This document shows, piece by piece, positions 48,135-53,092 of a stretch of DNA of 64,000 bases. The stretch comes from Sulfuricella denitrificans skB26 (GTDB lineage: Bacteria > Pseudomonadota > Gammaproteobacteria > Burkholderiales > Sulfuricellaceae), in assembly GCF_000297055.2 (NCBI RefSeq), contig NC_022357.1, forward strand, positions 2,243,501 to 2,307,500. Direction: 5' to 3'. The stretch's first letter is position 1. Every line of letters begins with the position of its first letter. A program made the translations under genes and the position numbers. Below the pieces are notes generated by a model. The model worked only from the letters and a program-made list of their open reading frames with translations, searched no databases and was not told where the DNA came from.

Positions 48135-48331
48135 CTTCGCCTCAAGTGGGCGGGGAATTAAACCCAAAGAGATTAAAGTCGGCTCACGTTTGGCGCATCA
48201 GGTGTATATCTCGCCCGTTTTTGGTGCGCCCATATAGCCCTGTCTTTTGGTCACACCGTCTATTTTCACTGATTCTATTCAGGATCAACCAGTTGCCTGC
48301 CATGGTATGAGAATTGCGTTATCGGCAAGTT

Positions 48332-48937
48332 ATGAACCCCCCCGTCAAACCCTCTGAATTCCCTCTTCGTGTCTTGCTGGTAGACGAAACCTTCGAGCGC
48401 GCGGCGCTTCTTAAGCACGCCTTGCAGGATGCAGGCTGCAAGATTGTGGCTCACGTCTCCTCCAGTGCCGATCTGCCTGGCCTGGTGGCTGAATTAAAAC
48501 CGGATCTGATTATTCTGGATACGGAGTCCCCAGACCGGGACACGCTGGAGAATTTATGCGTTATCAGGCGTGATCAACCGCGCCCGATCGTGATGTTTAC
48601 CCACGATGATGATAGCGACAAGATCCACGCTGCCATTCGTGCCGGCGTCAGTGCTTATGTTGTAAATGGCCTGAAAAGCGAGCGTTTGCGTCCCATCATG
48701 GACGTGGCGATTGCACGCTTCAATGAATTTCAGGCAATGCGGGCGGATCTGGCAAAAGCGGAAGGCCAGCTTTCGGAGCGCAAGGATGTGGAGCGCGCCA
48801 AGGGAATTTTGATGAAGCAGCGCGGCTGGTCCGAAGAAGAGGCCTATCAGGCTTTGCGCAAAGCGGCCATGGACAAGGGCTCTCGCTTGGCGGACGTGGC
48901 GCGGCAGTTGGTCGAGATCACGGAATTGTTGGGTTAA
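48332..48937 (+). CDS. nasT: ANTAR-domain antitermination regulator NasT
   Basis: 201 residues from the ATG at 48332 (a TTG at 48314 is in frame). A pseudoreceiver domain (LRVLLVDETFERAALLKHALQDAG, LIILDTESPDRDTLEN) is followed by a C-terminal ANTAR RNA-binding domain (ERKDVERAKGILMKQRGWSEEEAYQALRKAAMDKGSRLADVARQLVEI). NasT binds tandem hairpins in nitrate operon leaders and prevents termination. Such a leader starts 38 bases after the stop. NasS, its usual inhibitor and nitrate sensor, is not beside it. Confidence 0.93.
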   Translation: MNPPVKPSEFPLRVLLVDETFERAALLKHALQDAGCKIVAHVSSSADLPGLVAELKPDLIILDTESPDRDTLENLCVIRRDQPRPIVMFTHDDDSDKIHAAIRAGVSAYVVNGLKSERLRPIMDVAIARFNEFQAMRADLAKAEGQLSERKDVERAKGILMKQRGWSEEEAYQALRKAAMDKGSRLADVARQLVEITELLG

Positions 48938-48944
48938 ATAATTC

Positions 48945-48960
48945 TGGCACGTGTATTGCT
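48945..48960 (+). promoter_or_regulatory. Sigma-54 promoter of the nrt operon
   Basis: TGGCACGTGTATTGCT: GG at 48946-48947 and GC at 48958-48959 with ten bases between, a full match to the -24/-12 consensus. RNA would start near 48971, just before the first ANTAR hairpin. Confidence 0.85.
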
Positions 48961-48974
48961 TTAGGTAAATCAAC

Positions 48975-49034
48975 GGTCCAACGACGGGCCACAGCAAGTG
49001 AATAGAATCTGAGCCGACCAACGACGGTTGGCTC
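48975..49034 (+). promoter_or_regulatory. ANTAR-type tandem hairpin leader for NasT
   Basis: Hairpin 1 (48975-48990): GGTCC/GGGCC around the hexaloop AACGAC. Hairpin 2 (49011-49034): a nine-pair stem GAGCCGACC/GGTTGGCTC around the same hexaloop AACGAC. A at loop position 1 and G at position 4 match the known ANTAR target consensus. Twenty bases separate the stems. Binding of NasT should favour read-through of the terminator that follows. Confidence 0.88.
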
Positions 49035-49043
49035 ATAAGGACA

Positions 49044-49107
49044 AAGGCGTCCATTCGCGGGAGTAATTCCTTTCGCGGATGCGACGCCTTTTTTGTTTTG
49101 TTTTTTT
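49044..49107 (+). terminator. Regulated terminator before nrtA
   Basis: A long stem pairs 49044-49059 (AAGGCGTCCATTCGCG) with 49074-49090 through one bulge, followed by TTTTTTGTTTTGTTTTTTT. It lies between the ANTAR hairpins and nrtA and would stop transcription when NasT is not bound. Confidence 0.9.
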
Positions 49108-49122
49108 ATCCAGGAGAAAACC

Positions 49123-50376
49123 ATGACTACAGATTCCAAAAACAGCCGGAGAGATTTCATGAAAAAAGGCGCTACTTTACTGGGGGCCGGGGCATTGATG
49201 TCCATGGTCGATCCAGCAATACGTGTCGGTGCCTGGGCAGCAGGTTCCGATGCACCGGAAAAGGCCGAGGTCAAGATCGGCTTTATTCCTCTGACAGATT
49301 GCGCCTCGGTGGTGATCGCTTCGGTGATGGGCTTCGACAAGAAATACGGCATAAAAATCGTGCCCAGCAAGGAAGCCTCCTGGGCCGGCGTGCGCGACAA
49401 GCTGGTGAACGGCGAACTGGATGCTTCCCATGTGCTGTACGGCCTGATCTACGGGGTTCAGCTGGGCATAGGCGGGCCGAAAAAAGACATGTCGGTACTG
49501 ATGAGCATCAACAACAATGGCCAGGCCATTTCCCTGTCCAATCAGCTGAAGACCAAAGGTGCGGTGGATGGCACCAGTCTGGCTGCGCTGATCAAGAAGG
49601 AGCCGCGCGAGTATATTTTCGCCCAGACCTTCCCCACCGGCACCCACGCCATGTGGCTTTACTACTGGCTGGCGTCGCATGGCATCAATCCATTCGCCGA
49701 CGTGAAGAACATCACCGTGCCGCCACCGCAAATGATCGCCAACATGCGGGTAGGCAATATGGATGGATTTTGCGTCGGCGAACCCTGGAACGCACGGGCC
49801 ATTCGCGACAACGTGGGCTTTACGGCTGTCACCAGCCAGGACATCTGGAAGGACCATCCGGAAAAAGTGCTCGGCACCACGGCTGAATTCGTACATAAAT
49901 ACCCCAATACTGCGCGAGCCATGATCATGGCAATGCTGGATGCATCCAAATACATTGACGACATGAAGAACCGGGCGCAAGTGGCCAAGATTATTGCCGA
50001 GAAATCCTACGTCAACACCGATTTCGACTCCATCGAGGATCGCATGCTGGGCCAGTACGACAACGGCAACGGAAAGAAATGGCAGGATGCCAATTACATG
50101 AAGTTCTACAACGACGGTGCGGTGAACTTCCCCTACCTGTCAGACGGTATGTGGTTCCTCACCCAGCACAAGCGCTGGGGCCTGCTCAAGGAAGATCCGG
50201 ACTACCTGGCAGTGGCCAAGCAGGTCAACCAGATCGAACTGTACAAACAGGCTGCGACCCAGACCAAGACGCCCATTCCGAAGGATGTCATGCGTACCAG
50301 CAAGCTTATGGATGGCAGTGTATGGGATGGCAAGAACCCCAAAGCCTACGCCGCCAGCTTTAAAGTTAAAGCGTAA
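49123..50376 (+). CDS. nrtA: Nitrate ABC transporter substrate-binding protein NrtA
   Basis: 417 residues from the ATG at 49123 (AGGAG upstream). A twin-arginine signal (NSRRDFMKKGATLLGAGALMS) precedes the CmpA/NrtA-type binding domain: IGFIPLTDCASVVIASVMGFDKKYGI, ASHVLYGLIYGVQLGIGG, TFPTGTHAMWLYYWLASHGINPFADV, NMDGFCVGEPWNARAI. It captures nitrate (possibly nitrite) in the periplasm for NrtB and NrtC. It is the first gene after the sigma-54/ANTAR leader. Confidence 0.94.
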   Translation: MTTDSKNSRRDFMKKGATLLGAGALMSMVDPAIRVGAWAAGSDAPEKAEVKIGFIPLTDCASVVIASVMGFDKKYGIKIVPSKEASWAGVRDKLVNGELDASHVLYGLIYGVQLGIGGPKKDMSVLMSINNNGQAISLSNQLKTKGAVDGTSLAALIKKEPREYIFAQTFPTGTHAMWLYYWLASHGINPFADVKNITVPPPQMIANMRVGNMDGFCVGEPWNARAIRDNVGFTAVTSQDIWKDHPEKVLGTTAEFVHKYPNTARAMIMAMLDASKYIDDMKNRAQVAKIIAEKSYVNTDFDSIEDRMLGQYDNGNGKKWQDANYMKFYNDGAVNFPYLSDGMWFLTQHKRWGLLKEDPDYLAVAKQVNQIELYKQAATQTKTPIPKDVMRTSKLMDGSVWDGKNPKAYAASFKVKA

Positions 50377-50406: not shown

Positions 50407-50820
50407 ATGACACCTGAAAAAATAGCACTGGTTCGCAGTAGCTGGCAGCAGGTAGTACCCATTCAGGATACTGCAGCCGGACTCTTTTATAACCGCCTGT
50501 TCGAACTGGACCCTTCCCTGCGCAACCTGTTCAACGGGGATATGGTCGAGCAAGGACGCAAGCTCATGATCATGATCAACATGGTCGTCAACAGCCTGGA
50601 CCGACTCGAATCCATCATCGGAATGGTGAAAGAATCAGGGCGTCGTCACGTCGGATATGGCGTCAAGGCAGAGCATTTCGACACCGTGGGCAATGCCCTG
50701 ATCTGGACTTTGGGCCAAGGGCTAGGCGCAGGCTTTACGCCCGAGGTCAAGGAAGGATGGGTCGAGGCTTATGGCGTACTGGCCTCTACCATGAAACAGG
50801 CTGCCTACGGCTCGGCATAA
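50407..50820 (+). CDS. Single-domain globin
   Basis: 137 residues with the pattern of flavohemoglobin globin domains: LVRSSWQQVVPIQDTAAGLFYNRLFELDP, the CD region FNGDMVEQGRKLMIM, and the proximal His in GRRHVGYGVKAEHFDTVGNALIWTL. No reductase domain is attached. Its place between nrtA and nrtB suggests removal of nitric oxide formed during nitrate/nitrite reduction, or oxygen sensing; this is inference from context. Spacing of 30 and 67 bases fits one operon. Confidence 0.9.
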   Translation: MTPEKIALVRSSWQQVVPIQDTAAGLFYNRLFELDPSLRNLFNGDMVEQGRKLMIMINMVVNSLDRLESIIGMVKESGRRHVGYGVKAEHFDTVGNALIWTLGQGLGAGFTPEVKEGWVEAYGVLASTMKQAAYGSA

Positions 50821-50887
50821 TACGAGCCCGTCTCCGGACTGGCACTTGCGCCAGCCCGGAGGTGCAGCCCACAAACAGGAGTTTAAA

Positions 50888-51799
50888 ATGAATGCAGCGA
50901 ATCCAGGCATAGAAAGCCTGAAGGAAATCACGGCAGGCGATGGAACCATCGCCACAGCCAAAGTCTTCAAGATTTCGCCATCTATCAATGTGAGCGAACC
51001 CGTGCCCACAACTGGGCGACGTTTTTCCCTGGCAGCCAAAAATTTCTTTAAATGGCTGGTTCCGCCGGTGCTGGGTCTGACGATTTTCATCGGCATCTGG
51101 GCACTGGTTTCCCAGACCAGCCCGCAACTACCCGGCCCGCTCAAGACCTGGGCATCGGCACAGCAGCTGTTCAGCGACCCTTTTTACAACAAGGGCCCCA
51201 ATGATCAGGGCATCGGCTGGAATATCCTGGCCTCGCTGCAACGGGTGGGGATCGGCTTCGGCATGGCAGCAGCAATCGGCATTCCCCTCGGCTTCATGAT
51301 CGGACGCTTCAAGTTTCTCAACGCCATGACCGCCCCGATCATCAGCCTGCTGCGCCCGGTTTCCCCCCTGGCGTGGTTGCCGATTGGCCTGCTGGTATTC
51401 AAGGCAGCCAATCCGGCAGCGATCTGGGTGATTTTCATCTCCGCCATCTGGCCGATGATCATCAACACCGCAGTCGGCGTAAACCGCATTCCGCAGGATT
51501 ACATGAACGTGGCAAAGGTACTCAACCTGTCGGAATGGAAGGTTTTCACCAAAATCCTCTTCCCCGCCGTGCTGCCCTACATGATGACCGGCATCCGCCT
51601 CTCTATCGGAGTGGCCTGGCTGGTAATCGTGGCTGCGGAGATGCTGACCGGCGGTGTCGGCCTGGGTTTCTGGGTGTGGGATGAATGGAACAACCTCAAC
51701 GTCGAGCACATCATCATCGCCATTTTCGTGGTCGGTATCGTCGGGTTACTGCTGGAGCAGATGCTGGTACTGCTGGCAAAACGGTTTAGTTACGAATGA
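50888..51799 (+). CDS. nrtB: Nitrate ABC transporter permease NrtB
   Basis: 303 residues from the ATG at 50888 (ACAGGAG upstream). About six transmembrane helices start at WLVPPVLGLTIFIGIWALVSQTSPQ. The coupling-helix region is LRPVSPLAWLPIGLLVFKAANPAAIWVIFISAIWPMIINTAVGVNRIPQDYMNVAKVL, typical of the NrtB/SsuC group. It forms the nitrate channel with NrtC. An inverted GTGAGG repeat begins over its stop codon and fills the gap to nrtC. Confidence 0.93.
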   Translation: MNAANPGIESLKEITAGDGTIATAKVFKISPSINVSEPVPTTGRRFSLAAKNFFKWLVPPVLGLTIFIGIWALVSQTSPQLPGPLKTWASAQQLFSDPFYNKGPNDQGIGWNILASLQRVGIGFGMAAAIGIPLGFMIGRFKFLNAMTAPIISLLRPVSPLAWLPIGLLVFKAANPAAIWVIFISAIWPMIINTAVGVNRIPQDYMNVAKVLNLSEWKVFTKILFPAVLPYMMTGIRLSIGVAWLVIVAAEMLTGGVGLGFWVWDEWNNLNVEHIIIAIFVVGIVGLLLEQMLVLLAKRFSYE

Positions 51800-51896
51800 G
51801 GTGAGGGGTGAAGCGTGAGGGGTGAGGCGGAAATTCAAAACCCGCACCGCACCGGTTTTTCGCCGCACCCCTAACACCTCACCCCTAACACCTCAC
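51798..51896. repeat. Inverted array of GTGAGG-type units (copy 2)
   Basis: The left arm starts inside the nrtB stop (GAGGTGAGGGGTGAAGCGTGAGGGG, 51798-51822). The right arm (about 51861-51896) repeats CACCCCTAACACCTCAC. The design matches 7926-8044. The last unit ends in CACAGGAG, so the repeat directly abuts the ribosome site of nrtC. Confidence 0.8.
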
Positions 51897-51907
51897 AGGA
51901 GTTAATC

Positions 51908-52699
51908 ATGGAAAAATATGTTCAGATCGAAAACGTGCAAATGACTTTCGACACCAAGAAAGGCCCCTTCGTCGCATTGCGCGACATCAACCTCAACATC
52001 GCGCAGGGGGAGTTCGTCTCCCTGATCGGCCACTCGGGCTGTGGGAAATCCACCCTGCTCAACCTGGTTGCCGGGCTGACCATTCCCAGCAACGGCGCAA
52101 TGCTCTGCGCCGGGCGGGAAATCGCCGGGCCTGGGCCGGAACGCGGGGTGGTGTTCCAGAATCATTCCCTGCTGCCATGGCTGACCTGCTTCGAAAACGT
52201 TCATCTGGCGGTCGAGCGTGTCTTTGCCCGGGCAGAAAGCAGCGCATCCATGAAAAAACGCACCCAGGCAGCGCTCGCGCTGGTCGGGCTGAGCCATGCC
52301 GAGCACAAGTATCCACATGAAATTTCCGGCGGCATGAAACAGCGGGTCGGCATCGCTCGCGCCCTGTCCATGCAGCCCAAAGTGCTGCTGATGGACGAGC
52401 CGTTCGGCGCGCTGGATGCCTTGACCCGCGCCCATCTCCAGGACGAACTGATGAAGATTGCAGCGGAAACCAAAAGCACGGTGATCATGGTGACCCACGA
52501 CGTGGACGAAGCCGTCCTGCTGTCCGACCGCATCGTGATGATGACCAACGGCCCGGCCGCCACCATCGGCGAGATCCTGACGGTCAGCTTGCCGCGCCCA
52601 CGCGAGCGTCTGGCACTGGCGAACAACCCGAAATACCACGAATACCGCGGTGCGGTGCTGGACTTCCTGTATCGCCGACAACTGCGCCCGGCAGCCTAA
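51908..52699 (+). CDS. nrtC: Nitrate ABC transporter ATPase NrtC/NrtD type
   Basis: 263 residues. Walker A is [16 protein letters not shown], the signature [16 protein letters not shown], Walker [18 protein letters not shown], and the switch [19 protein letters not shown]. It lacks the extra C-terminal NrtA-like domain found in cyanobacterial NrtC, so it resembles NrtD in length. It energises NrtB. It is the last gene of the operon. Confidence 0.92.
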
Positions 52700-53076: not shown

Positions 53077-53092
53077 TGGCACGATAGTTGCT
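53077..53092 (+). promoter_or_regulatory. Sigma-54 promoter of the nirB operon
   Basis: TGGCACGATAGTTGCT: GG at 53078-53079, GC at 53090-53091, spacing ten bases. It matches the nrt promoter at 48945 in 13 of 16 positions. The predicted start near 53103 is about 48 bases before the nirB ATG. Confidence 0.85.

Follow-up and report, generated by a model that had tools for sequence, protein, structure and literature searches.

How transcription of the nitrate-uptake operon is regulated in Sulfuricella denitrificans skB26, and which signal its regulator reads, is the question raised by the short region between nasT and nrtA. This region contains a sigma-54-type promoter, a series of hairpins and a terminator, an arrangement expected of antitermination by an ANTAR protein. 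Such switches are ordinarily operated by the nitrate sensor NasS. We analyzed a 64,000-nucleotide stretch of the genome (3.22 Mb in two contigs), which is hereafter called the window and in which positions are counted from the first letter, together with related loci.

In Klebsiella, the operation of Ntr control and ANTAR antitermination in series has been established for nasF (PMC5424462). The published ANTAR motif consists of two hexaloop hairpins, the second of which overlaps the terminator; in eut leaders, they are joined by a linker of 5–12 nt, and when the linker was cut to 3 nt or extended to 14 nt, induction was drastically reduced (PMC3369931). In the eutP leader, the loop positions are A29 and A53, giving a spacing of 24 (PMC3369931), and P2 of the nasF leader likewise overlaps the terminator (PMC3369936). 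In this study, we conclude with a probability of about 0.82 that the region upstream of nrtA is an ANTAR antitermination leader read by NasT and carried on a sigma-54-dependent transcript.

Results

Organization of the nrtA promoter, leader and operon

The features are listed in Table 1. The nrtA-leader promoter begins 7 bp past the end of nasT, has exactly the GG-N10-GC spacing of a -24/-12 element, and predicts a transcript start at approximately 48971; rpoN is present in the genome. Two exact copies of the consensus TGGCACGNNNNTTGCW are present in the 64-kb window, against 0.04 expected from shuffled sequences. The initial annotation had described a sigma-54 promoter followed by two AACGAC hairpins and a strong terminator before nrtA, and all of these elements were found where it had placed them. 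The whole leader folds with -60.7 kcal/mol (z = -7.1 against shuffles). The AACGAC hexamer occurs at chance level, with 24 copies in the window versus 24.6 expected, so the signal beyond chance lies in the hairpins and their conservation, not in the hexamer. Likewise, the identity of the two hexaloops, previously regarded as unusually clean, is not special: relatives read AACGGC, AATGGC, AAAGAC and others at these loops, and only A1 and G4 are invariant.

Table 1. Features of the nasT–nrtA region and of the downstream operon
Feature	Position	Strand	Basis
NtrC-like site GCCCGTTTTTGGTGC upstream of nasT	48213–48227	+	one mismatch to GCAC-N7-GTGC; NtrC binding inferred
nasT sigma-54 promoter TGGTATGAGAATTGC	48303–48317	+	kept in 12/12 family sequences; predicted +1 at ~48329
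nasT, REC-ANTAR antiterminator	48332–48937	+	Pfam ANTAR, 4.3e-20; conserved ATG at 48332
nrtA-leader sigma-54 -24/-12 promoter TGGCACGTGTATTGCT	48945–48960 (site listed 48945–48959)	+	exact consensus; kept in relatives
H1, 5'-proximal hexaloop hairpin GGTCC-AACGAC-GGGCC	48975–48990	+	covarying stem
H2, ANTAR P1 hairpin, 10 bp, loop AACGAC	49010–49035	+	covariation; model R1, 51.2 bits over 49013–49053
H3, ANTAR P2 (antiterminator) hairpin GGAC-AAAGGC-GTCC	49039–49052	+	pairing, covariation, nascent fold
Intrinsic terminator stem	49043–49091	+	-31.8 kcal/mol; mutually exclusive with H3
Terminator U-rich tract	49086–49107	+	sequence
nrtA, nitrate-binding protein, Tat signal SRRDFMKK	49123–50376	+	PDB 2g29 NrtA, E 4e-84
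Single-domain globin between nrtA and nrtB	50407–50820	+	Pfam Globin, 6e-15
nrtB (50846–51799) and nrtC/D ATPase (51908–52699)	50846–52699	+	TIGR01183, TIGR01184 above cutoff
Separate sigma-54 promoter before nirB	53077–53091	+	exact consensus; second copy in window

The genes are arranged in the order nasT, leader, nrtA, globin, nrtB, nrtC/D, nirB, nirD and assimilatory nitrate reductase, and NrtA is 97% identical to its counterpart in Sulfuricella sp. T08. The nirB leader (~50 nt) contained no ANTAR element and no match to R1, our model of the P1–P2 pair. Because nirB has its own sigma-54 promoter without an ANTAR leader, the ANTAR gate directly covers only nrtA-globin-nrtB-nrtC. In Sulfuricella sp. 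T08 (L011), the nirB promoter is retained although the sequence on either side has diverged; as no more than the two closest Sulfuricella sequences were found to carry it, it is not a feature of the family. The globin gene between nrtA and nrtB is shared with several Sulfuricellaceae (L011, L154–L156).

NasT is the sole ANTAR protein and co-occurs with the element

A genome-wide search for ANTAR domains returned exactly one protein, NasT, which is encoded just upstream of the leader and matches both the REC and the ANTAR domain in Pfam. Correspondingly, R1 gave one strong site in the genome (2.6e-12). A second match (L138, 19.6 bits), which seems to fall within an HU-like gene in antisense orientation, was taken as a chance hit. 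Among 120 genomes of the order, the element occurred in 21, all of which carry nasT, and in none of the 77 genomes that lack nasT (Fisher p = 7e-12, kinship not corrected for). R1 matched nothing in 22 of the 43 nasT genomes, and weak forms are lost by the covariance search. In one Burkholderiales genome, a stretch of less than 7 kb (G046:C1, 435070–441712) contains three P1–P2 elements, which may constitute a small NasT regulon.

The receiver domain of NasT has N118 in place of the conserved lysine, and lysine is present in 0 of 98 aligned NasT sequences. Regulation of NasT by phosphorylation was therefore judged unlikely, and regulation through contact with another protein is the likelier mode.

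NasS was not found in the genome

The antitermination had been annotated as nitrate-responsive, a claim that the sequence does not establish. A search of the genome with the PF13379 profile did not find NasS: the only strong protein was NrtA (355 bits), and the next candidate scored 36.7 bits. Control NasS proteins reached 180–251 bits with the same model, so a true NasS would have been detected. NasS was likewise not found in nearly all genomes of the family. By comparison of coordinates, nasT has a gene of the NasS/NrtA type no more than 100 nt away in six of the 43 nasT-bearing Burkholderiales genomes; most of the others have a single gene of this type, 0.3–2 kb from nasT, and the inspected ones mostly encode a Tat signal. 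In Paracoccus, deletion of nasS results in constitutive expression (PMC3795266).

NrtA could itself stand in for NasS: as a Tat substrate, it would fold in the cytoplasm and might contact NasT before export, so that nrtA expression would feed back on NasT. NrtA is a relative of NasS (32% identity to the Sinorhizobium NasS control), nasT is directly 5' of nrtA in most relatives, and the missing receiver lysine, which makes protein contact likelier, fits such a role. However, the export signal of NrtA is clear, the protein has partners in a transporter, and the proximity of the two genes may reflect co-inheritance alone. We consider this putative sensor role unlikely, albeit the most plausible of the alternatives weighed here.

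Nitrogen limitation as a candidate input

Control by nitrogen limitation, the other input previously proposed, has indirect support only. The genome encodes NtrC as well as the sigma-54 factor, and relatives carry NtrC-like sites: of 67 relatives, 35 have an exact GCAC-N7-GTGC sequence at most 260 bp from the promoter, versus 0.85 expected. Such a sequence is absent there in the window, and no NtrC-like site was found within 700 bp of the nrtA-leader promoter. Sites allowing two mismatches were uninformative (289 found versus 312 expected). The only candidate, upstream of nasT, is 732 bp before the nrtA promoter; most loci of the Sulfuricellaceae keep it, with one mismatch, at -731 to -745, and L101 has a perfect GCACCATTATGGTGC at the same place.

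A sigma-54 promoter follows 90 bp after this candidate site and directly adjoins the start codon of nasT. A sigma-54 site near the nasT start was found in 32 of 87 nasT loci, against 0.25 expected. A TTG at 48314 was rejected as the start of nasT, for it falls inside the promoter, and the ATG at 48332 is conserved. As the conserved promoter ends 14 bp before this ATG, the nasT mRNA should be nearly leaderless. With no NasS found, and with a sigma-54 promoter and an NtrC-like site in front of nasT, the amount of NasT, set by nitrogen limitation, is a likely input of the switch. Judging from these sites, nitrogen limitation may drive both NasT and its target in a feed-forward loop.

The second and third hairpins as the probable ANTAR pair

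H1, H2 and H3 each have the characteristics of an ANTAR hexaloop, namely a 6-nt loop with A1 and G4 closed by C:G. The initial annotation had overlooked H3, which overlaps the 5' arm of the terminator, and had taken the twin AACGAC hairpins H1 and H2 as the ANTAR pair. The loops of H2 and H3 are 23 nt apart, close to the spacing of 24 in eutP, and H3 overlaps the terminator, whereas the loops of H1 and H2 are 40 nt apart and neither hairpin overlaps the terminator. On these grounds, the working P1–P2 pair is most likely H2 and H3, with H1 as an extra hexaloop. The linker between H2 and H3 is just 3 nt when all 10 bp of P1 are paired, a length that proved too short in eutP; fraying of two outer P1 pairs would lengthen it.

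Alternatively, H1 and H3 could be the working pair, with H2 as a hairpin inserted in the linker. The leaders of three relatives (L049, L055 and L073), in which a hexaloop at the position of H1 is followed by a plain hairpin and then by P2, conform to this arrangement. However, A1 and G4 of H2 are retained in 13 of the 14 members of the family, and the spacing of H2 to H3 is canonical, which makes the H1–H3 pairing improbable. Still less probable is the original proposal that H1 and H2 constitute the pair and that nitrate acts on it via NasS-NasT. The two loops indeed share A1 and G4, both stems covary, and the nasT gene adjoins the leader. Against this, the 19-nt linker between H1 and H2 is outside the published range (eutP induction is lost at a 14-nt linker, and a 20-nt extension abolished antitermination), both hairpins are clear of the terminator, the best-conserved element is H3, and the NasS that the proposal calls for was not found in the genome.

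Conservation and covariation of the leader

We aligned 14 distinct sequences from Sulfuricellaceae and relatives. Covariation among homologs, on which the annotation of both AACGAC stems had been made to depend, was found in H1 as well as in H2. In the H1 stem, 94% of cells are paired and three of the five pairs show double changes; in the H2 stem, eight of the nine counted pairs are altered on both sides. H3 is paired in all 14 members, and its 5' strand is invariant save for one G-U variant, though it is outside the terminator. The sequence comparison thus identifies H1 as a conserved, covarying additional hexaloop at the 5' end of the transcript in the family.

A wider betaproteobacterial set comprised 34 distinct leaders picked for a P1–P2 spacing of 20–28. 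In this set, 97.6% of the cells of the P1–P2 pair are paired, a percentage that is biased because the rows were chosen for having hairpins. Double changes were found in 45 cells versus 13 in shuffles, a signal that was lost when the partner strand was slid, and selection alone does not account for how varied the pair types are. The outer pair of H3 also covaries among these 34 leaders. Of 69 distinct leaders in which a promoter and a terminator are both present, 46 have a hexaloop with A1 and G4 that starts 30–41 nt from the promoter TGG, compared with 0.3 in shuffles; this hexaloop corresponds to H1 in some leaders and to P1 in compact ones. The 5'-proximal hairpin of many relatives carries another kind of loop in place of the hexaloop. 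Some relatives have a long-linker form with a plain hairpin between P1 and P2; in L049, L055 and L073, this hairpin is strong and could hold the hexaloops close despite the long linker.

The idea that the region is just a plain terminator behind nasT with chance hairpins and no regulation, to which the position of the terminator directly 3' of nasT lends itself, has a negligible chance of being right, as a sigma-54 promoter is located between nasT and the terminator, and the element is conserved, covaries and strictly co-occurs with nasT.

Folding order of the nascent leader

Nascent RNA extending to 49056 was predicted to fold as H1-P1-P2. In the full leader, the terminator was favored over the forced-P2 fold by 12.6 kcal/mol. 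H3 (49039–49052) and the terminator (49043–49091) overlap, and the forced-P2 fold showed them to be mutually exclusive: with P2 formed, the terminator was reduced to an upper stem ~10 nt from the U-tract. By this modeling, the leader has the geometry of canonical antitermination.

Discussion

From the elements themselves, their conservation and covariation, the single ANTAR protein and the missing NasS, all of which are read from the sequence, we infer binding of NasT to the leader, use of the promoters and the nature of the input signal. In the proposed mechanism, sigma-54 RNA polymerase would start at ~48971, and the emerging RNA would fold into H1, then P1 (49010–49035), and then P2 (49039–49052). 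Unless active NasT is present, P2 would be displaced by the terminator's 5' arm and transcription would stop at ~49090–49107. With NasT bound, P2 would be held, the terminator would shrink to an upper stem away from the U-tract, and nrtA-globin-nrtB-nrtC would be transcribed. The most likely role of H1 is that of a second site at which NasT is recruited. In the model proposed for EutV, P1 recruits one dimer, which is passed on to P2, and P1 is then taken by a second dimer (PMC8934654); the third hexaloop thus offers a natural test of recruitment and handover.

A broader interpretation can be put forward tentatively, at less than even odds. In these Betaproteobacteria without NasS, the ANTAR switch would not sense nitrate; NtrC and sigma-54 would drive both the near-leaderless nasT and the nrtA transcript, the amount of NasT would be the signal, H1 would recruit NasT at a second site, and the two gates would form a coherent nitrogen-limitation feed-forward loop. 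Given that no NasS candidate was found in most of the sampled nasT-bearing Burkholderiales, how, or whether, nitrate controls the operon is an easily testable question.

The generic switch, in which a sigma-54 promoter, an ANTAR leader and a terminator precede a nitrate-uptake operon, is textbook; the third hexaloop and the missing NasS are a modest variant, seen in many Betaproteobacteria. Nothing relevant to a three-hexaloop ANTAR leader or a NasS-less NasT was found in a limited set of open-access papers. The closest parallel is Klebsiella oxytoca nasF, a nitrate assimilation operon with Ntr-controlled transcription, P1/P2 hexaloops with A1 and G4, and overlap of P2 with the terminator (PMC5424462, PMC3369936, PMC7496416). 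The reader there is NasR (NIT-ANTAR), whereas here it is NasT (REC-ANTAR), the leader has the extra H1 hexaloop, and the nitrate sensor was not found. The NasS-NasT systems of Paracoccus, Azotobacter and Pseudomonas likewise have nasT next to the genes of nitrate assimilation, as well as a hairpin-bearing leader, and Paracoccus also has an NtrC site upstream of nasT (PMC5424462). Unlike in these systems, NasS was not found in the present genome, and nasT has its own sigma-54 promoter at the start codon. Enterococcus EutV leaders share the dual hexaloop, the mutual exclusion of P2 and terminator, and the ~24-nt loop spacing (PMC3369931), but they serve ethanolamine genes under a phosphorylation-driven regulator, and a third hexaloop is not described there.

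At the gathering threshold, Rfam found only a tRNA in the window. Two families nevertheless resemble the leader below their cutoffs. The consensus of P11 from Pseudomonas (RF00625) contains UUGGCACAagcaCUGC, a CAACG loop and GGACAAAGGCGUCC; it differs in having two hexaloops, and the window scored 19.8 bits, far under the cutoff of 70. The consensus of narK RNA (RF03032) begins with GGCaC...UUGC, a sigma-54 core, and continues with a CCAACGGCGG hairpin and ACAAAGACGU; in this family, the spacing from promoter to P1 is shorter and there is no third hexaloop. Because both consensus sequences combine a sigma-54 core with ANTAR-type hexaloops, narK RNA and P11 probably each represent an ANTAR leader read by NasT together with its sigma-54 promoter, and not an RNA that is transcribed over its full length. 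Against RF03032, the window reached 30.8 bits (E 2e-4 when 231 bases were searched) and so fell short of the gathering cutoff of 43.2, which the nrtA leader of a member of the Rhodocyclaceae (L039, 3827–3898) passed with 44.8 bits.
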